Assembly (NCBI RefSeq): GCF_004944975.1
Contig: NZ_SPQG01000001.1
Span: 1-32,806, forward strand
Direction of reading: 5' to 3'
Length of the DNA: 32,806 nucleotides
From: Halorhabdus amylolytica
Lineage (GTDB): Archaea > Halobacteriota > Halobacteria > Halobacteriales > Haloarculaceae
The notes under the pieces are model-generated. The model saw only the letters and a program-made list of their open reading frames with translations, made no database searches and was not told the DNA's origin. Every line of letters starts with the position of its first letter. Position 1 is the first letter of the stretch. The translations under genes were made by a program, and so were the position numbers. Shown here piece by piece: positions 17,438 through 26,750 of this stretch.

Positions 17438-18307
17438 TCACACCCCCGGCTCGATCCCGTCGGCGATCGTCGACGCCACGCGGGCGTTCGCCCGGTGATC
17501 GATCGCTTTCGTTTCGAAGATTTCTCGCGTACTCGGGAGTGCTGACTCGTCGCCATCGAAGGAAAGTCCGGGATACTCGACGCGAGTCAGGACCAGCGGT
17601 TCCGGGGGTGCGGGGGCGATTCCCTGTGGGCCTTCAAGCGCTTCGTCGCCGAGAAGTGTCTCGACGCGATCGAGTCCCGTCCCGCCGCTCGCAACCGCGT
17701 GGATCACTGTGACGGCCCGGCGGACGAACTGGCGCGGAAAGCCATCCGAACGGAGCGTGACGACCAGGAAGTCCTCGTCCCGCCGAACCTCACCGACGAG
17801 ATCGCGAACTGTCCCGGAGTCATCGGGCGTAAAGTTCTGGAAATCGTGTTCTCCCGAGAGCGCCTCGATGGCGTCGCGTGCTCGCGACAGCAGGGCGTCA
17901 GGGGCGTGGAGGTGGTAAGTGTACTCGCGTGCAGTCGCGTCGTGCGTTGCGTGGAACTCCCGGTCGACGTCCGCACTCGCCCAGGCCCGGACGTCGACCG
18001 GGAGTTCGCTGTTGAGCGCGGCGGGCGTCAGCCAGTCGGGACATTCGAAGGCGACGGTCTGGGCGAGTGCGGAAACGCCGGCATCAGTCCGTCCGGCAGC
18101 GGCGTAACCTGGCAGGACATCGCCCGCAGACGCGTCGAAGACATCGAGATCACGGAGAGCGGCGAGGATCGCGTCCGAGACGGTCCTCACGTCGGGCTGG
18201 CGCTGGAAGCCGTGATACGGGCGGCCGTCGTAGGCGATCCGGAAGGCTCGTCTCGAAGCGTCGGTCACGGATCGAATTCGACGGAGCGGGCCTTCGGACT
18301 TTCGCAC
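17438..18307 (-). CDS. truA: tRNA pseudouridine synthase TruA
   Basis: Converts uridines at positions 38-40 of the tRNA anticodon stem to pseudouridine. The catalytic aspartate is in AAAGRTDAGVSALAQ, preceded by the family start FRIAYDGRPYHGFQRQP and followed by REYTYHLH and NFTPDD. The start given is GTG at 18307, ten bases from the preceding methyltransferase gene. A second GTG at 18268 would begin the protein 13 residues later and closer to the usual family N-terminus. It is last in the 17438-20995 cluster, possibly only for transcription. Confidence 0.93.
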   Translation of the reverse strand: MRKSEGPLRRIRSVTDASRRAFRIAYDGRPYHGFQRQPDVRTVSDAILAALRDLDVFDASAGDVLPGYAAAGRTDAGVSALAQTVAFECPDWLTPAALNSELPVDVRAWASADVDREFHATHDATAREYTYHLHAPDALLSRARDAIEALSGEHDFQNFTPDDSGTVRDLVGEVRRDEDFLVVTLRSDGFPRQFVRRAVTVIHAVASGGTGLDRVETLLGDEALEGPQGIAPAPPEPLVLTRVEYPGLSFDGDESALPSTREIFETKAIDHRANARVASTIADGIEPGV

Positions 18308-18316
18308 GTCACCCGG

Positions 18317-19168
18317 TCACGAGTCAGGCCCACGATACAGAAGGTCGTACTGGTGGGCGATGTACGTCAACCGTCCGTCAGCCAGTTGCTGTCGACGGGC
18401 CGCGAGCCAGTCGTCACCCTCAGCGACCGTTCCATCTGAGAGGGCCGTCTGGACGAATCCGAGAATAGCATCAAGGAAATACGCTTCGTCGGCGGGATAG
18501 ATCCCATCCCGAGGGCGAAGGACCCAGTCGGAGGCGGCCATCGCGAGTAGATCGCCGTCCGCACGTCGAGAAGCGTCCGCCAGGTGACGTCCGGCGTGGA
18601 CGTCCCGGCCGGGTTCGGCGTCGATCGCCGCGTGGTAGGCCGCTTCGACTTCCTCATCCACCGGGTGATCGGGCTGGAATATCGTTCCCCCGTCGAAGGT
18701 GATCGGGAGGTAGGCGAGCCCTCCCGGGGCCAGCGCCGATTCGACCCCGGCCAGTAACTCCGAAATCGAAACGAGATCGGCGAAAGCCTGAGCGACGATC
18801 AAATCGACATCCTCGGCGCGTTCGAGTGTCCCGAGTGCGTCGCCGGTCTCGTAGGTGACCGAAAGATCTTCCACAGAAAAGCCGCGGTCGCAAACCGTGA
18901 CTCCGTGGCCGGCCCGTCGGAGTTCGGCCGGCCGCACGTCACGCGCGAAATCGATGACACCAGCGTCGCCGTCGACCCCGCGATACGTCCCGGTATCGAT
19001 CCCCCATTCGAGTAGCCCTGGCACCATCGTTCCCGTGCCACAGCCGACGTCGAGGATCCGTGGCTCGGAGGGCAGCGCCGAGAGTAACCGCTCACGAACC
19101 CGTGGTGAACGAGACCGGTCGTCGAGCGACCGCTTGGCCTCCAGATAGCGGGTTTCGGTGTGGTTCAT
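18317..19168 (-). CDS. Class I SAM-dependent methyltransferase
   Basis: A 283-residue protein with the SAM-binding motif ILDVGCGTGTMVPGLLEWG (about residues 35-53), then YRGVDGD as the acidic loop, and LIVAQAFADLV in the motif IV region. The target is not indicated by sequence. The ATG at 19166-19168 (MNHTETRYLEAKRSL) overlaps the stop of the pterin-synthase-like gene by four bases, so I prefer it to an upstream ATG at 19216. Its tight coupling to the other three genes suggests it modifies a small-molecule intermediate or product of the same pathway; this is inference. Confidence 0.82.
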   Translation of the reverse strand: MNHTETRYLEAKRSLDDRSRSPRVRERLLSALPSEPRILDVGCGTGTMVPGLLEWGIDTGTYRGVDGDAGVIDFARDVRPAELRRAGHGVTVCDRGFSVEDLSVTYETGDALGTLERAEDVDLIVAQAFADLVSISELLAGVESALAPGGLAYLPITFDGGTIFQPDHPVDEEVEAAYHAAIDAEPGRDVHAGRHLADASRRADGDLLAMAASDWVLRPRDGIYPADEAYFLDAILGFVQTALSDGTVAEGDDWLAARRQQLADGRLTYIAHQYDLLYRGPDS

Positions 19169-19560
19169 CCATCGAGACGACGTGCGTGACTCGCCCAGGA
19201 GACGTCGTCTTCCCACATGCGGATCCGGAGGTGTTCCGGGTTCGGATTCGCGAGCGCGTCCGCGACGCGGTCGCCGAACAGGCGGGCGAAGTGTTCGACG
19301 CTCGGGTTCAAGCCCTCGAATTCGGCAAGGTCGTTGAGTAAGGCATCACGATACCGGTCTTCGAGGTCATCGAGAATCGCTTCGACGTCGTCGATGTCGA
19401 CGAGATACCCGTATTCACCGAGTTCGGGGCCGGCAAAGCGAACCTCGACGGTGAAGTGGTGGCTGTGAGGAACCCCCTCCGGACCCGGATCGGGGACTGT
19501 GAGGTAGTGCTGTGCAACGAACTCGCGCGTCACTGTCAGTTCGTACGTGTTGGTCGTCAT
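19165..19560 (-). CDS. 6-pyruvoyl-tetrahydropterin synthase/QueD-like protein without cysteine
   Basis: A 131-residue protein of the PTPS/QueD T-fold family. Zinc ligands expected for the family are present as H18 (AQHYL) and H32/H34 (VPHSHHFTVEV). The family's C-terminal part is seen as NPSVEHFARLFGDRVADAL and LRIRMWEDD. Known PTPS and QueD enzymes use a cysteine a few residues before the HxH motif. Here that region reads PEGVPHSHH and the whole protein has no cysteine, so the usual mechanism is excluded and another reaction is likely. The ATG at 19558-19560 overlaps the upstream dehydrogenase stop by four bases. Confidence 0.82.
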   Translation of the reverse strand: MTTNTYELTVTREFVAQHYLTVPDPGPEGVPHSHHFTVEVRFAGPELGEYGYLVDIDDVEAILDDLEDRYRDALLNDLAEFEGLNPSVEHFARLFGDRVADALANPNPEHLRIRMWEDDVSWASHARRLDG

Positions 19561-20615
19561 CTGTCTGTCTCCGTGTCAGTGTGTTGGGCGTGTGTCTGTG
19601 TCTCCGCAGGGTACGTGAGCAGGATCTGGAGTGCGTTCTCGGAGTGGTTGTCGAGTCGACGGTACGCGGACGGCGCGTCTTCGAACGGGATCCGGTGGGT
19701 AACCAGCGAGTCAACCGGGAGTGACGCCAGATTTTCGAGCGTGACCTCGGTGCGCCGATCGAACGACCAGCGCCCACGGAGTTCGGGGGCGATCGTACTG
19801 ACCTGACTGGACTCGATCGAGACGCGATCGCGGTGGAAATCCCCGCCGAGATCGGGCGTCGGTGATTTCGTCCCATACCAGGAGCCGACGACGATCCGGC
19901 TATCGTAGCCCGAAACAGCGAGGGCGTCGTCCAGGGCCGACGGCGCACCCGATAGTTCGTAGAGCAGATCGAACCCTTCAGGCCCAGCCGCGTCGTTCCA
20001 GCGTGTCTCTGTGTACTCGTTCGGTGCGATCGCCGTATCGGCACCCAGTTGTCGGGCACGTTTTCGACGCCCCGCCAGTGGATCGACGACAACCAGTTCC
20101 GACAGCGGAAACGACGCCAGCAACCCGATCGTACACAGACCGATGGCACCCGCGCCGAAAACCACCACCCGTTCGCCGATCCGCGGCGCCCCGTCGAGAA
20201 CGAGTGTCGTCGCTGTCTCGACCGTCGGGTACATGACCATCTCTTCGGGGCCGGTCCCATCTGGGACCGGGACGAGGGCCGAAGGTGTCGCGCTGAACAC
20301 CGTCTCGTGAGGATTGAACGCGAAGACGGTTCGACCAAGCCACGACGTATCGACGGCCGAACCGGTCTCGATCACGTCCCCGACTGCCGCGTAGCCGTAG
20401 CGTAGCGGATAGGAGAGATCACCATCCAGCGCGTCGAGCGTCTTGTCGGCCGGGAGGTCGCCTGGCGCCTCGCCGCGATAGATGAGTAGTTCCGTCCCGG
20501 GACTGATCGCCGAGACGCGCGTTTCGATGAGTACCTCCTCGGCCGAGTACTCGACCGACCGTTCGCGAAGTTCGACCGCTTCGGGGCCGGTGAAGTAAAG
20601 CGAATCCCCCGCCAT
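19557..20615 (-). CDS. Medium-chain dehydrogenase/reductase, BchC-like, lacking zinc ligands
   Basis: A 352-residue alcohol-dehydrogenase-like protein. The nucleotide-binding fold is clear: RVVVFGAGAIGLCTIGLLAS (about residues 165-185) followed by LVVVDPLAGRRKRARQLGAD. The catalytic-zinc cysteine and GHE motif of classical members are replaced by SAISPGTELLIYRGEAPG and YPLRYGYAAVGDV. This pattern is like the BchC-type subgroup, so a zinc-independent NAD(P)-linked reaction is likely. The ATG at 20613-20615 overlaps the previous stop by one base (TGATG). The substrate is unknown; the neighbours suggest a pterin- or flavin-related compound. Confidence 0.82.
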   Translation of the reverse strand: MAGDSLYFTGPEAVELRERSVEYSAEEVLIETRVSAISPGTELLIYRGEAPGDLPADKTLDALDGDLSYPLRYGYAAVGDVIETGSAVDTSWLGRTVFAFNPHETVFSATPSALVPVPDGTGPEEMVMYPTVETATTLVLDGAPRIGERVVVFGAGAIGLCTIGLLASFPLSELVVVDPLAGRRKRARQLGADTAIAPNEYTETRWNDAAGPEGFDLLYELSGAPSALDDALAVSGYDSRIVVGSWYGTKSPTPDLGGDFHRDRVSIESSQVSTIAPELRGRWSFDRRTEVTLENLASLPVDSLVTHRIPFEDAPSAYRRLDNHSENALQILLTYPAETQTHAQHTDTETDR

Positions 20616-20995
20616 CAGTCGTCGGCCGGGAGCTGGGCGGCGCTCCGAATCCGTGCGCCGATCGCTTGACACTGTTCAAGGGCGTCTTTTCCCCCGGCAC
20701 CGGCCGCGCAAGCTGTCGGGCCGCGACCGATCCCGGCCTGCAGTTCGATCCCGGTCTCGACGGAACCGACAGTCTCCGACCCTGTCTCTGGCGGTTTGTC
20801 GTCCGTGACGGCGAACATGTCGTCGAAACGGCCGTAAAAGGCGTCCCCATCGACCGCACGGACGAAGGTGGCGAAATCGGCGAGCAGTGACGCCTGCAGG
20901 GATTGAGGGTCCGTTTCGTGCCGTGACTTGGGTGTGACAGGCCAGGGATCGTAGTCGTTGCTCTGTACCAGCGCGATCCGGGTTGCTGTTGTCAC
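20615..20995 (-). CDS. Half-size GTP cyclohydrolase III (ArfA)-like protein
   Basis: A 126-residue protein resembling archaeal GTP cyclohydrolase III, which opens GTP to a formylaminopyrimidine in riboflavin/F420 synthesis and is about 250-270 residues with two related halves. Residues 1-66 (SNDYDPWPVTPKSRHETDPQ and FYGRFDDMFAVTDD) match the start of the first half. Residues 80-115 (GIELQAGIGRGPTACAAGAG) match the end of the second half. The middle, including the second GGDN-type motif, is absent. The usual IDNYG and RFDN motifs are altered to SNDYD and RFDD. The start is GTG at 20993-20995 with a TATA-like box 27 bases upstream. It may be a single-domain form working as a dimer, or a protein with a changed role. 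Confidence 0.75.
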   Translation of the reverse strand: MTTATRIALVQSNDYDPWPVTPKSRHETDPQSLQASLLADFATFVRAVDGDAFYGRFDDMFAVTDDKPPETGSETVGSVETGIELQAGIGRGPTACAAGAGGKDALEQCQAIGARIRSAAQLPADD

Positions 20996-21208: not shown

Positions 21209-21979
21209 TCAGCGCTCCCGGCCGAGACGGCCGGTGACGACCAGGAAATCCCGGGCGAACACCGCAAGCGACGGAGCGAGAACGAACGGGGCCGCGGTCC
21301 GGACGAGCGTCGTCGGCGCGGTCGGCGTGAGTGCGACGGTGAGAAACACCATCTGGACGCCGGCCAGGTACTTGCCCAGATCGCTGTCGGGTGGGTCAAA
21401 CAGCGGTCGTCCCCTGTGTCGTCGCCAGGCCAACCCGCTACGATAGACGTACCTGGCGGCCGACAACGAGAGGTACCAAACGGGGAGGACTCCCCAGAGG
21501 ACGGCAACCAGCGGTGCAGCGACGAAGCCGAAGGTATCGAAGGCCATGTCAAGGCGTTCACCGAGTTCGGTCTCCCGGCCGACCGTCCGTGCGATCGTCC
21601 CGTCGAGTTTGTCGAGAACGATCCCGCACCCGTACGCCAGGGCCGGCACCCACGCGAGGCGAGTACCGGGCGGGACGACGACGAATCCAGCCACGACCGC
21701 ATACAACGCGCCCCGGAGCAGGGTCAAGGAGTTCGCTAACCCGAACAGCCCGGCCAGCGGTCCCTCGGCGGCCCGTATCGGAACGAGACGATGACTGGCG
21801 TACCACAGCAGGCCGCCCAGACAGAGACCGGCAACCGCTGCGGGGTCGAGCATCCAGGTATCGAGCTCGCCGGGTGGGTACAGCCCCCGGAGGACGACAG
21901 CGAGTGCGACCGCCCCCAACACCGGAAGCCCCACCTCCATCCCGACAGACAGTGTCCGGTTGGGGCTTCGTTCAGTCAT
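21209..21979 (-). CDS. CDP-alcohol phosphatidyltransferase family protein
   Basis: A 256-residue membrane enzyme that joins a CDP-linked lipid or alcohol to a second alcohol. The full family signature DG-x2-AR-x8-G-x3-D-x3-D is present in DGTIARTVGRETELGERLD followed by MAFD, near residues 138-160. Six or so hydrophobic segments flank it. It could make a phospholipid head group such as archaetidylinositol phosphate, archaetidylglycerol or archaetidylserine; sequence alone does not decide. The start is ATG at 21977-21979. It is on the same strand as the downstream pterin/flavin-like cluster but 213 bases away, so it is probably a separate unit. Confidence 0.88.
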   Translation of the reverse strand: MTERSPNRTLSVGMEVGLPVLGAVALAVVLRGLYPPGELDTWMLDPAAVAGLCLGGLLWYASHRLVPIRAAEGPLAGLFGLANSLTLLRGALYAVVAGFVVVPPGTRLAWVPALAYGCGIVLDKLDGTIARTVGRETELGERLDMAFDTFGFVAAPLVAVLWGVLPVWYLSLSAARYVYRSGLAWRRHRGRPLFDPPDSDLGKYLAGVQMVFLTVALTPTAPTTLVRTAAPFVLAPSLAVFARDFLVVTGRLGRER

Positions 21980-22115: not shown

Positions 22116-22502
22116 TCAGGAACGCAACAGGGCCAGCAGGACGCCGAGCAATGCGAGCTGAGCGATCTTGTCGACCGCCCCGAGCGTCCCGATATCGGCC
22201 GGGAAGGACTTCGGACCGTTGACGAAGTTTATGACGAACCACAGGACGATCTGGACGAGAACGAACGGGACCCCGACAGCGTAGACGGTCCGACGGCGAT
22301 AGTCGACCAGTACGAGGACGATCGCGCCCAGAAAGCCAAGCCCCGCAAGGACGAAGCTTATCCCCATCCCCGAAGGGAGAATTCGCACCCCGAGCAGCAG
22401 GTGAATCGCTGCGCTGACGACGGCTGCGAGGATGCCGATCCAGTGGAGCCCACCCAGCGATTCCGTCCGGATCCTCGGTCCCGCCGCTTCGGTTGTTGCC
22501 AT
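22116..22502 (-). CDS. Small haloarchaeal membrane protein (four TM), function unknown
   Basis: A 128-residue protein with four hydrophobic segments (about residues 20-40, 48-65, 72-95, 108-127). The start MATTEAAGPRIRTESLGGLH at ATG 22500-22502 is preferred to an ATG nine codons upstream, because a TATA-like box (GATTATGTA, about 22523-22531) then falls near -25. I believe this is one of the conserved haloarchaeal DUF membrane families but cannot name it with certainty. It sits between the CDP-alcohol transferase and the oxidoreductase fusion. Confidence 0.75.
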   Translation of the reverse strand: MATTEAAGPRIRTESLGGLHWIGILAAVVSAAIHLLLGVRILPSGMGISFVLAGLGFLGAIVLVLVDYRRRTVYAVGVPFVLVQIVLWFVINFVNGPKSFPADIGTLGAVDKIAQLALLGVLLALLRS

Positions 22503-22615
22503 ACCACACATATCGGTGAAGGTGTACATAATCGTGGTGTCGGCGGAGTGACTTACCGCATCGTCGGCCCGAACGGGGTTCCGTAACGTCGTCCTGTGAT
22601 CGCTCGACAGTCCGG

Positions 22616-24589
22616 TTACCGCTCGAATCCGGGGTCACGGAGTGAATCGATACGATCGATTTCGTCGGGAGAAAGTCGGTGTGTGCCAGCGGCCAGGTTC
22701 GAAACGATGTGGGCCGGCGTCGTGCTCGAAGGGATCGCCACGACGTTTCGGGAGACGTTCCAGGCGATGACGACCCCAGCCGGCGAGAGATCGTACTGCT
22801 CACCGATCTCGGCCAATACTGGCTCGTCCAGCAGACCCGGTGCGGACAGCGGGGAGTGAGCGACCACTCTGATTCCGCGTTCGTGACAGAACGAGACGAG
22901 GTCGTTTCGCGGCTGGTAGGGATGGCGTTCGATCTGAACGATCGCCGGTCGAACGGTGCCCGTTTCGAGGATCGTCTCCAGTTGGGGTTGCGTGACGTTC
23001 GAGGCGCCGAGCGTCCGGGACAGTCCCCGATCGTGGATGGCTTCGAGATTCTTCCAGGCCGTTTCGAGCGATATGTCGTCCGTCTCGATATCACCGTCGT
23101 CGTTTTCGGGGAACGTCAGTGCCTCCTGACGCTCGACGGGCAGTTCGGCCAGCCGCGTCAGCGGACCGCGATGGGCCCAGGCCTCGGGCCAGTGTAACGC
23201 GTAGCAGTCAAACGCGTCGATGCCGAGCTCGGCGAGACTTCCCGTTGCGGCCTCGAACATGTGTTCGCGCCGATGGTTCGTCCGCCAGACTTTCCCGAGG
23301 ACGAAGACGGCCTCGCGGTCGGGCGCACCGGGTGCGGAAAGCAACTCGCCGATCCGATGCTCGTTGCCGTAGAGTTCCGCGCTGTCGAGCAAGCGATAGC
23401 CCGCGTCCATGGCCGTCGCGATCGAGTCCCGGCGCTCGACGTACTCGCCGTCACGATATCGCGAACAGCCAAAGCCGATCGGCGGCAGGTCGATCCCGTC
23501 TCGGTCAGTCGCTTGGCCATCTCGGACGCTCGGACGAACGTCCTGATCGGGGAGCGGATCACGGGCCACCCCGAAGTCGCGGACCGTCACCGGCCCGCCG
23601 TTCGCAGCGGCGTCCTCGATGGCGTTGCAGACGGCGACGACGTGAGCTCCCCGCCGAGCGCTTTCCCGAGAGGGAGCTCCCGCAGCGACGGTATCGGCGA
23701 GTCGCTGGACGGCGTCGATGTATTCGATCGACGACGAGGGTGATTGTGGCGGTACTGTGGTATACTCCCGACCGACGCGACCGAACTGGACGTGGTCGAC
23801 GGCCGTCTCCATCGCGCCAGTCCCGTCCAGATACAACGAACCGTCGTCGCCGTGGAGTTCCAGGCCGTAGAACTCCCGACTCCGGTGGGGCGCGTAGAAA
23901 CTTGCCGTCAGCCGGACGGTCGGGCCGGACTCGAAGGCGAGCATCGCCTCGATGTGGCTGGGTGCCGACGGTCGTCGTTGCTCCCGCTCGGGCCAGCTGT
24001 CCAGCGTGTCGGCGACGCGAACCGTCTCGACAGGGCCAAACCACGAAACGAGTAACGTCAACGGATAGACACCGCCGTCGTACAGCGGGCCGATCTCTAG
24101 AAACGAGTCCGGTCGGTCGTGCCAGTCCGTCACGCGACCCACGTGGGCGTGAGCGTAGCCCAGTTGCACGGGACCTGGACGGCCGTCGGCGAGGACGCGT
24201 GCCGCCCGACGCTGTGACGGTCCCTGGGGATTCTCGGGGGCCACGCCGAGGGCGAGGTTACGTTCGCGTGCCATCGATAGCAACTGCCCGGCGGTCTCGC
24301 CGTCGAGCGCGAGCGGTTTCTGGGAGTAGACGTGTCGGTCCGCCGCGAGTGCCGTTCTGGTCACCTCGGCGTGGGCGGCGTGGGTCGTCAGGTTCACGAC
24401 GATTGGCGCATCGACTGTCGAGAGCGCCGTCTCCAGGTCGGTAAACCACGGAGAGTCGTTCTCAGCCGCGAGATTTTTTGCCCGCTCGCCGTCGATATCA
24501 CAGACGCCGGCCAGCGAGAGCGAAGTCGATTCCAGGCCCGACGCGTACTCGGATGCGATCGCACCGGCGCCGACGAACAGACAGTCCAT
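22616..24589 (-). CDS. Fused Gfo/Idh/MocA oxidoreductase and aldo/keto reductase
   Basis: A 657-residue two-enzyme fusion. Residues 1 to about 355 are a Gfo/Idh/MocA sugar-type dehydrogenase. It has the NAD(P) fold at MDCLFVGAGAIASEYASGLE, the lysine motif in HVYSQKPLALDG, and EIGPLYDGGVYPLTLLV in the catalytic region, with tyrosine where many members have histidine. After a linker near 355-380, residues about 380-657 are an aldo/keto reductase barrel with the tetrad aspartate and tyrosine in RLLDSAELYGNE, lysine in FVLGKVWRT and histidine in CYALHWPEAW. The open frame extends 280 codons further upstream, but that part is antisense to the next gene. The ATG at 24587-24589 begins the fold exactly. 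The two domains may act in turn on one sugar. Confidence 0.88.
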   Translation of the reverse strand: MDCLFVGAGAIASEYASGLESTSLSLAGVCDIDGERAKNLAAENDSPWFTDLETALSTVDAPIVVNLTTHAAHAEVTRTALAADRHVYSQKPLALDGETAGQLLSMARERNLALGVAPENPQGPSQRRAARVLADGRPGPVQLGYAHAHVGRVTDWHDRPDSFLEIGPLYDGGVYPLTLLVSWFGPVETVRVADTLDSWPEREQRRPSAPSHIEAMLAFESGPTVRLTASFYAPHRSREFYGLELHGDDGSLYLDGTGAMETAVDHVQFGRVGREYTTVPPQSPSSSIEYIDAVQRLADTVAAGAPSRESARRGAHVVAVCNAIEDAAANGGPVTVRDFGVARDPLPDQDVRPSVRDGQATDRDGIDLPPIGFGCSRYRDGEYVERRDSIATAMDAGYRLLDSAELYGNEHRIGELLSAPGAPDREAVFVLGKVWRTNHRREHMFEAATGSLAELGIDAFDCYALHWPEAWAHRGPLTRLAELPVERQEALTFPENDDGDIETDDISLETAWKNLEAIHDRGLSRTLGASNVTQPQLETILETGTVRPAIVQIERHPYQPRNDLVSFCHERGIRVVAHSPLSAPGLLDEPVLAEIGEQYDLSPAGVVIAWNVSRNVVAIPSSTTPAHIVSNLAAGTHRLSPDEIDRIDSLRDPGFER

Positions 24590-24706: not shown

Positions 24707-25591
24707 GTGACAGAACCGGGAATGGGTCGGCTCGGGACCGCCTACCTCCGGGGACTGCAGGCGATCGGCAAGCGGCTCGACACCGGGACGAACGTCTTCG
24801 AGCGCGACTGGGACGTACTGGTTGTCCTCGACGCTTGCCGGGCGGACCTTCTGCGGGCGGTCGCCCCGGAAACGGATCTGATCAACGAAGTCGATTCGAT
24901 GCGATCTGTCGGTAGTTCCTCCTCGGAGTGGCTCGAAAACACGTTTCCCGGTCACCCGGAGACCGCCCGAACGGTAATGGTAACCGGGAACACCTGGACC
25001 GACCGCTACGTCGAGGCCGACGCCTTCGTCGCGCTGGACGAAGTCTGGAAGTACGCCTGGGACGAGGACCTGGGAACGATTCCGGCGCGGACGGTCACCG
25101 ACCGGGCGATCGCGATGGCCCGGAATCGACAGCCTGAGCGGCTGGTCGTCCACTACATGCAGCCTCACCACCCGTTCGTCCCGGACCCGCTTGCGGAAGA
25201 CGACGGCATGGTTCGGAACAGCGATCACAGCAACCCGGCGAACCCGTGGGTCGCCCTTCGACGTGGCGAGATCGCGACCGGCCGTGTGTGGGACGCCTAC
25301 GAGGCCAACCTCAGACACGTGCTCGAGGAGGTCGAAACCCTGGTGGACAACGTGACGGGCCACGTCACGATCACCGCGGATCACGGCAATCTCTTCGGCG
25401 AGTGGGGACTGTACGGCCATCCGATGCACCTCCCGCTACCGCCGGTGTTGACAGTCCCGTGGGCCGAGACGACGGGTGGCGGTCAAACCGCCTACGCTCC
25501 GAAGTTAGCGCCCCCGGAGCCCCTTCCCGTGAATCGTGTCTACGGGGCGGACGGCGATCGAGAGCGACTCGACGCGCTCGGCTACCGATAA
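24707..25591 (+). CDS. Alkaline-phosphatase-superfamily (sulfatase-like) protein
   Basis: A 294-residue protein of the alkaline phosphatase superfamily. Metal-site motifs are LVVLDACRADLL near residue 40, which has aspartate and a neighbouring cysteine, and HVTITADHGNLFGEWGLYGH near residue 225. VVHYMQPHHPFVPDP is another conserved stretch. This haloarchaeal group typically sits in cell-surface glycan clusters, but whether it acts on sulfate, phosphate or phosphoglycerol esters is unknown. The start is GTG at 24707 or ATG at 24722 (MGRLGTAYL). No signal peptide is seen, so it is probably cytoplasmic. It is divergent from the oxidoreductase fusion and 46 bases before the glycosyltransferase gene. 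Confidence 0.8.
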   Translation: MTEPGMGRLGTAYLRGLQAIGKRLDTGTNVFERDWDVLVVLDACRADLLRAVAPETDLINEVDSMRSVGSSSSEWLENTFPGHPETARTVMVTGNTWTDRYVEADAFVALDEVWKYAWDEDLGTIPARTVTDRAIAMARNRQPERLVVHYMQPHHPFVPDPLAEDDGMVRNSDHSNPANPWVALRRGEIATGRVWDAYEANLRHVLEEVETLVDNVTGHVTITADHGNLFGEWGLYGHPMHLPLPPVLTVPWAETTGGGQTAYAPKLAPPEPLPVNRVYGADGDRERLDALGYR

Positions 25592-25606
25592 CAGACCGGA
25601 GCCCGG

Positions 25607-25616
25607 GGTATATTTT
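25607..25616 (+). promoter_or_regulatory. TATA box of the glycosyltransferase gene
   Basis: GGTATATTTT lies 22-31 bases before the ATG at 25638. It indicates the glycosyltransferase has its own promoter and supports this start rather than an in-frame ATG at 25536 inside the preceding gene. Confidence 0.6.
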
Positions 25617-25637
25617 CTTCCGGCCCAAACGCCCCAC

Positions 25638-26750
25638 ATGGCACAGGTCGCCGTCCTCCACAACACGCTCGACTTCCAGGGCGGTGCGGACGCGGTATGT
25701 CTGGGGACCTGTGAGGCACTGCTTGCCGACCACGAGGTCACGCTATTCACCCTCAGCGAGACTGATCCCGCCGTCCTGGCGGACCGGTTCGACGCAGACC
25801 TCGAGGGGCTTGCGGTACGGACGCCACCGGCCAATGGACCGATTGCGAGGACACTCGCCCGGCTCGGCCCAACGATCGGACCACAACTGGCCTTTCGAAG
25901 CGTGCTCGTCTGGCGGTACTTCCGAGGACACGCGGAGGCGTTCGATCTGACGGTGAGTACCGCAAACGAGTTCTCACTCCCGGGGCCGTCCGTCCAGTAC
26001 GTCCACTACCCGCAGTTTCACCTCCGAGACCGCGCGGACGCCGATTCCGGCCGACTGAATCCAGTGTGGAGCCGGGTGTCCGGTCCTGACCGATGGAACC
26101 TTCGACGTGCGACGCTGCTCGCGAACTCGGCGTGGACTGCCGACGTGGTCGAAAATATCTACGGCGTGCGTCCCGAGGTACTGCACCCGCCAGTCGACCC
26201 GGTCGAGGGCGGTCTCGACTGGGACGACCGCGAACGCGGGATCGTCGTCGTCGGGCGGATCGCGCCCGATAAGCGGGTACTGGACGCGATATCTATCGTC
26301 GACAGTCTCCGCGACCGCGGCCACGATATCCATCTCCACGTCGTCGGGTCAGCGCCGCGCTCCTATCGGCGGTATGCCCAGCAGGTCGCGTCGGCCGCCG
26401 GCCAGCGATCCTACGTCGCCCTCGAACGTGACGTCCCCCGCGAACAACTGCAAGCCCTGCTTCGAACCCACCGCTACGGGCTGAACCTCAAGCCTGACGA
26501 ACACTTCGGTATGTCTGTCGCCGAGTACGTCTCGGCCGGAATGATCGCGTTCGCACCCGACAGCGGCGGTCAACGGGACGTTCTCGACGGGCGGTCGGAT
26601 CGGTTGTTCGACTCGCCGGAGTCGGCCGTCGACCTGATCGAATCGGCGATCCGCACTGACGACCGTCCGTCGCTTCCCCGAGATCGCTTCACCCGCGACC
26701 GCTTCAAAGCCGCGATCAACGAGTACGTAAATCGAGTGATAGCACGATAG
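25638..26750 (+). CDS. Glycosyltransferase family 4 protein
   Basis: A 370-residue GT-B fold glycosyltransferase. The N-terminal domain starts VAVLHNTLDFQGGADAVCLG, the acceptor-side glycine-rich loop. The C-terminal domain has GIVVVGRIAPDKRVLDAI near residues 205-220 and LKPDEHFGMSVAEYVSAG near 290, which contains the E-x7-E nucleotide-sugar site. It transfers a sugar from a nucleotide or lipid-linked donor; donor and acceptor are not predictable. Context (phosphatase-like gene before, HAD hydrolase after) fits assembly of a surface glycan or glycolipid. Confidence 0.9.
   Translation: MAQVAVLHNTLDFQGGADAVCLGTCEALLADHEVTLFTLSETDPAVLADRFDADLEGLAVRTPPANGPIARTLARLGPTIGPQLAFRSVLVWRYFRGHAEAFDLTVSTANEFSLPGPSVQYVHYPQFHLRDRADADSGRLNPVWSRVSGPDRWNLRRATLLANSAWTADVVENIYGVRPEVLHPPVDPVEGGLDWDDRERGIVVVGRIAPDKRVLDAISIVDSLRDRGHDIHLHVVGSAPRSYRRYAQQVASAAGQRSYVALERDVPREQLQALLRTHRYGLNLKPDEHFGMSVAEYVSAGMIAFAPDSGGQRDVLDGRSDRLFDSPESAVDLIESAIRTDDRPSLPRDRFTRDRFKAAINEYVNRVIAR

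Follow-up and report, generated by a model that had tools for sequence, protein, structure and literature searches.

A probable haloarchaeal form of the bacterial PTPS-IV-type gene cluster with a decayed GTP cyclohydrolase III gene in Halorhabdus amylolytica

The stretch of DNA analysed here, called the window, comprises 32,806 nucleotides of Halorhabdus amylolytica (NCBI RefSeq assembly GCF_004944975.1, contig NZ_SPQG01000001.1). It includes a tightly coupled group of genes for a short protein similar to ArfA (GTP cyclohydrolase III), a medium-chain dehydrogenase, a PTPS/QueD-fold protein and a methyltransferase. We consider it likely that this region is the haloarchaeal form of the bacterial "PTPS-IV"-type cluster, that it converts a GTP product of the riboflavin type to a methylated, often glycosylated pyrimidine or pteridine, and that its ArfA gene has decayed. 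Sequence comparisons established a conserved core, an entry slot occupied by ArfA in archaea and by RibA in bacteria, the decay of ArfA and selection on the remaining genes. Widespread in haloarchaea, the cluster probably starts from GTP and yields a modified ring compound. A pathway from a GTP-derived ring had been proposed in a preliminary description of the locus, and it is likely.

Conservation of the cluster in haloarchaea

Pfam and NCBIfam profiles matched GCH_III (in two fragments), a medium-chain dehydrogenase/reductase (MDR), PTPS, a class I methyltransferase and TruA. As previously described, the minus strand encodes truA and the four genes, which have stop/start overlaps of 1-4 bases with one another: the junction of the ArfA-like and dehydrogenase genes reads TGATG (1 base shared), and those between dehydrogenase and PTPS and between PTPS and methyltransferase both read ATGA (4 bases shared). 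It had also been stated that each enzyme lacks standard catalytic features. This holds for the truncated ArfA, the PTPS without cysteine and the dehydrogenase without zinc ligands, but it is too broad because the methyltransferase has an ordinary S-adenosylmethionine (SAM) motif (DVGCGTG), a Methyltransf_25 match and nothing obvious missing.

PTPS proteins of the window type are found in 31 of 59 haloarchaeal genomes and are absent from 28. A scan of genome contigs gave 254 PTPS-encoding stretches, of which the best 80 named loci were used for the neighbourhood counts. Among these, the dehydrogenase gene accompanies PTPS in 69 loci, the methyltransferase gene in 60, ArfA in 43 and a family-4 (GT4) glycosyltransferase gene in 40, and most of them show the arrangement (ArfA)-dehydrogenase-PTPS-(glycosyltransferase)-methyltransferase. 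The gene order is therefore conserved in other Halobacteria, and arfA does have such neighbours in other haloarchaea, as the preliminary description supposed, Haloferax species included. Of two recurrent layouts, one has a Gfo/Idh-aldo/keto reductase gene and a divergent glycosyltransferase gene, as in the window; in the other, seen in Haloferax and Natrinema, GT4 lies 3' of PTPS. Only dehydrogenase-PTPS-methyltransferase is present on a plasmid of Halobellus limi. Our literature search found no paper on the combined cluster.

In Haloarcula marismortui, the PTPS match (NC_006395.1:104283-104650) falls into two pieces with no annotated gene there, and the gene is therefore probably frameshifted.

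In the following, G000 is the window's own genome and G004 and G006 belong to the same genus, for which seven species were available. In the ArfA tree, a supported clade of 25 proteins, 24 of them linked to PTPS, includes the cluster copies of G006 and G008, and a separate canonical clade holds Haloferax and unlinked copies. In the whole-genome set, carriers of a cluster-clade ArfA possess another ArfA at a different locus, which the window's genus lacks.

Bacterial counterparts and the entry step

The published neighbourhood of PTPS-IV includes genes for GTP cyclohydrolase II and RibD_C (PMC5445326), and PTPS-IV has been ascribed to F420, with no published data (PMC5041015). The core of the cluster is common to loci of Streptomyces fungicidicus, Rhizobium, Peteryoungia, Palleronia, Thiodictyon, Methylosinus, Microbacterium and a Rhodobacteraceae strain, all with RibA and/or a RibD-family protein close by; in Methylosinus, an unnamed protein occupies the methyltransferase slot. 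The PTPS-IV-type neighbourhood of GTP cyclohydrolase, RibD-type protein, dehydrogenase, GT4 and methyltransferase is shared, with ArfA for RibA in archaea. Two Streptomyces plasmid matches (H14 and H27) have a PTPS-IV protein but lack the full cluster.

In Salinivenus lutea, a halophilic bacterium of the Rhodothermota, a PTPS of the haloarchaeal type stands together with dehydrogenase and methyltransferase (L230:5337-9344), probably a case of interdomain transfer. A RibA-RibD_C fusion, whose RibD_C half was recognised by eye, lies 5' of these three genes, exactly in the slot of ArfA. Because of this fusion, the strongest evidence on the point, we take the entry step to be a riboflavin-type opening of GTP.

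Decay of the ArfA gene

The ArfA-like open reading frame (ORF) of the window encodes 126 amino acids (aa) compared with 258 aa in the intact genes of G006 and G008; 132 of ~258 codons are gone, in frame. The remnant matches the GCH_III profile at positions 2-60 and 203-233 only and does not have the architecture of two palm domains in ~250 aa. Besides these two fragments, profile search found no second GCH_III/ArfA in the window's genome. Within the genus, the gene is full-length in G006, short in G004 and absent from four species, and most relatives from other genera have GCH_III at full length. Alignment with the 258-aa copies showed that the G004 gene lost a different stretch of ~140 codons, also in frame. 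The two short genes keep different pieces, and at least two deletion events must therefore have taken place. Near-invariant ArfA residues are altered in the remnant: instead of the motif QIDxYGPWTVTP it reads QSNDYDPWPVTP, and the GGDN segment of FVGGDN is deleted.

The ratio of nonsynonymous to synonymous substitution rates (dN/dS) of ArfA was computed on the codons common to G000, G004, G006 and G008. It is 0.81 for the remnant pair G000-G004 (bootstrap 0.47-1.44, a range that includes 1) and 0.20 for the intact pair G006-G008 (0.11-0.34). Between G000 and G004, the ratio is 0.22 for the dehydrogenase, 0.08 for the PTPS and 0.22 for the methyltransferase. Judged by these ratios, the latter three genes are kept under purifying selection while ArfA decays. 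Loss of the whole cluster in the genus, with the three intact genes merely not decayed so far, would agree with the absence of both window-type PTPS and any ArfA from four of the seven congeners. However, the three genes are as strongly constrained in G000/G004 as in G006/G008, and the constraint persists although ArfA decay is already advanced, so that we regard such a general loss as unlikely.

The 126-aa product might also be a working GTP cyclohydrolase or nucleotide binder with a single palm domain, the N-terminal half of domain 1 being fused to the C-terminal half of domain 2. Its ORF is open in two species despite different deletions, the overlap with the dehydrogenase gene is retained, and its AlphaFold2 model weakly resembles GTP cyclohydrolase III and GGDEF domains. 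This is very improbable given the contrast of 0.81 with 0.20 in dN/dS and the model itself, which has a predicted local distance difference test score (pLDDT) of 61 and a predicted template modelling score of 0.45 (PTPS: pLDDT 93) and lacks the helix between strands 3 and 4. Moreover, the different pieces kept by G000 and G004 leave no fold in common, and the conserved QIDDYGPWTVTP segment is eroded in both. The "half-size GTP cyclohydrolase III", taken in the preliminary description as an enzyme of a GTP pathway, is on this evidence a decaying ArfA copy under relaxed selection and not a variant enzyme.

After three in-frame deletions, the short ORFs contain no stop codon (neutral expectation 1.9, P ~0.16), and the TRATG overlap with the dehydrogenase gene is retained in all four species (G000, G004, G006 and G008). 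This suggests that translation through the remnant still matters. Translational coupling by overlaps was strict in 13 of 14 gene pairs tested, nine of the 14 being from Haloferax volcanii, TGATG and ATGA overlaps included (PMC6728339). Coupling of the remnant's translation to that of the dehydrogenase at TGATG may be what keeps its frame open.

A separate PTPS subfamily and a dehydrogenase without zinc ligands

The PTPS-like protein of the window has zero cysteines and does not carry the CxxxHGH motif of QueD. Among 30 relatives, His18, Glu28 and His34 are invariant and His32 is conserved in at least 90%. The spacing, ExxxHSH, is not that of the PTPS-III motif, ExxHGH (PMC5041015). The T-fold and the putative zinc ligands His18, His32 and His34 are present, with a Foldseek E-value of 2e-10 to 3d7j. 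This structure, SCO6650 of Streptomyces coelicolor, is the closest solved protein by both sequence and fold and has the PTPS-IV signature FGPAQ. The aligned stretch of the window protein reads PGPEG, and assignment to PTPS-IV by signature was rejected. In an unrooted tree, the PTPS proteins of haloarchaeal clusters, PTPS-IV and QueD fall into three distinct supported clades, and because of this separation the haloarchaeal proteins were not filed as PTPS-IV.

An identity as QueD for archaeosine, or as a PTPS-III enzyme of folate synthesis whose motif has shifted, would agree with the shared fold and with the Glu in place of Cys as in PTPS-III, though in the spacing ExxxHxH. Nevertheless, the protein belongs to a clade apart from QueD, its recurrent neighbours include no QueD-pathway or folate gene, and it is co-conserved with the dehydrogenase and the methyltransferase. 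The genome G006 carries the cluster, and a full-length QueC was not found there, which argues against an archaeosine cluster. Such an identity is highly doubtful; QueD for archaeosine was rejected by the ExxxHSH motif, the missing QueC in G006 and the separate clade, and a deazapurine role is unlikely for the same absence of QueC.

Divergent QueC-like genes were seen at G000:C12:53030-53644 (E-value 2e-34) and G004:C1:388228-388794 (E-value 2e-25), the genus being otherwise without QueC. They may belong to a system for defence or DNA modification.

Zinc MDRs have Cys and His-Glu ligands at the positions where the window's dehydrogenase carries SAISPGTE and YGYAAVG. The Streptomyces counterpart likewise has SGVSRGTE and YGYLNVG. 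With neither the catalytic Cys nor the His-Glu ligands, the dehydrogenase does not belong to the zinc-dependent MDRs. The peculiarities of this enzyme and of the PTPS are common to the whole haloarchaeal family, and damage is confined to the ArfA gene: the Cys-less PTPS (ExxxHSH) and the dehydrogenase without zinc ligands each represent a conserved subfamily and no damaged copy.

Bacterial-type riboflavin genes and the loss of ArfA

RibBA (GTP cyclohydrolase II) is found in all seven species of the genus, and a search of 52 other haloarchaea found it in none. RibE and RibH flank it in the window's genome (NCBIfam identities). RibH, present in all seven species, and the DHBP domain in the genus are of bacterial type. 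Apparently, a riboflavin operon of bacteria was transferred into this archaeal genus. The archaeal ArfC is retained alongside. ArfA would be bypassed because RibBA makes the diaminopyrimidine phosphate that ArfC uses. The decay of ArfA is most likely a consequence of the bacterial-derived operon now feeding the starting material.

The full bacterial-type ribE-ribBA-ribH operon lies at L076:9744-12129 (G000:C22). As to a joint loss of ArfB and ArfA, creatininase-family genes, at family level candidates for ArfB, are present in all genomes. G038 (L147), a haloarchaeon with a 99% complete genome, has the PTPS cluster and RibH, and neither ArfA nor GTP cyclohydrolase II was detectable in it.

The four congeners without window-type PTPS and any ArfA still have RibBA, RibH, ArfC and CofH-like genes, the last being likely but not certain in identity as their matches are below the model's curated cut-off in 12 of 12 genomes. 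The cluster is therefore not required for riboflavin or F420. The proposal of the preliminary description that it supplies missing riboflavin or F420 steps of haloarchaea could draw on ArfA adjoining PTPS in Haloferax and on the riboflavin auxotrophy of an H. volcanii arfA deletion (PMC8305020), but it is scarcely credible and was rejected, given the bacterial RibE-RibBA-RibH and ArfC of the window's genome, the gene content of the cluster-less congeners and the 28 of 59 haloarchaea without this PTPS.

Proposed pathway

In the proposed pathway, ArfA would originally have given a formamidopyrimidine (FAPy) substrate, and RibBA would now provide the equivalent diaminopyrimidine phosphate, a supply that would make ArfA dispensable. 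Less certainly, zinc may be held by three His of the PTPS-fold protein, whose Glu28 would act on the ring or side chain as acid/base, and the zinc-less dehydrogenase may oxidise or reduce a side-chain carbon. The methyltransferase might then finish the core, to which glycosylation would be added in other species. Phosphorylated or glycosylated pterins are known in haloarchaea and Sulfolobus and serve as a lead only.

Several points weigh against this interpretation. About half of the haloarchaeal clusters have no adjacent ArfA, and the feeding of substrate by RibBA is deduced from presence and absence alone. The short ArfA frames are still open after three in-frame deletions and many substitutions, the remnants may have some non-enzymatic role, and relaxed selection is only loosely estimated (bootstrap down to 0.47; P ~0.16 for no stop under neutrality). 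Moreover, bacterial and haloarchaeal PTPS are in separate clades and ~24-30% identical, and the products of the two pathways may therefore differ.

On balance, we lean towards the broader view that haloarchaea and many bacteria share an undescribed pathway to a GTP-derived methylated, often glycosylated molecule, in which GTP cyclohydrolases III and II are interchangeable at the entry. The genus would then be a natural experiment, where the gain of RibBA led to decay of ArfA to a translational leader of the dehydrogenase. The assumption of an odd enzyme gives way to a testable history, in which riboflavin genes of bacterial origin enter a haloarchaeal genus, after which the archaeal enzyme that opens GTP in a second pathway decays. 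About 250 loci of haloarchaea are linked to the unsolved bacterial PTPS-IV clusters; the plasmid records examined annotate their PTPS as 6-carboxytetrahydropterin synthase (queuosine). Haloferax offers a tractable archaeon for finding the product.

Features of the locus

The cluster reaches further upstream than first described, to ~26750 (Table 1). For truA, which is not thought to belong to the pathway, the GTG start at 18268, ~48 bases past the methyltransferase gene, is more likely because the NCBIfam match begins at residue 20.

Table 1. Genes of the cluster and its surroundings in the window
Feature	Coordinates	Strand	Remarks
Truncated cluster-type ArfA (GTP cyclohydrolase III) remnant, 126 aa	20615..20995	-	Two internal in-frame deletions of 62 and 70 codons relative to G006
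Medium-chain dehydrogenase without zinc ligands, 352 aa	19557..20615	-	Purifying selection
PTPS/QueD-fold protein, 131 aa	19165..19560	-	Motif E28xxxH32SH34 where CxxxHGH is expected; separate haloarchaeal subfamily
SAM-dependent methyltransferase, class I, 283 aa	18317..19168	-	Part of cluster; profile match, recurrence
CDP-alcohol phosphatidyltransferase	21209..21979	-	Recurrent neighbour, 31/80 named loci; also in bacterial clusters
DUF7475 membrane protein	22116..22529	-	Recurrent neighbour, 29/80 named loci
Gfo/Idh/MocA oxidoreductase-aldo/keto reductase fusion	22616..24589	-	Recurrent neighbour, 24-27/80 named loci
Glycosyltransferase, family-4 type, divergent	25536..26750	+	Recurrent neighbour, 21/80 named loci
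truA, tRNA pseudouridine(38-40) synthase	17438..18268	-	Adjacent housekeeping gene

Apart from the cluster, NadB of G006 (L095:9108-10937) matches in two pieces near the N-terminus, with 312 bases between them in the same frame register, which is either an in-frame insertion or a broken gene.

Comparison with known systems

The bacterial PTPS-IV clusters of Streptomyces, rhizobia and Rhodobacterales have the same order dehydrogenase-PTPS-(GT4)-methyltransferase, and a CDP-alcohol phosphatidyltransferase and a GTP-cyclohydrolase or RibD-family protein are found nearby, as in haloarchaea. Their dehydrogenases are 35-38% identical to the haloarchaeal ones. In contrast, the haloarchaeal PTPS has kept HxH, has no FGPAQ and forms its own clade, and the entry enzyme is ArfA in place of the bacterial GTP cyclohydrolase II. 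The remnant and its intact relatives are homologous to the ArfA/GTP cyclohydrolase III proteins MJ0145 and HVO_1284, but the cluster copies related to that of the window form a separate ArfA clade, and the window copy has lost half its length as well as its constraint. With QueD (PTPS-I) and PTPS-III, the window PTPS has the T-fold in common; it differs in its ExxxHSH motif in place of CxxxHGH or ExxHGH, and no associated QueD-pathway or folate genes were seen. BchC-type medium-chain dehydrogenases are the best NCBIfam match of the window's dehydrogenase and share its Rossmann MDR architecture, but the score of 63 bits is far under the family cut-off of 291, and a bacteriochlorophyll context is absent.

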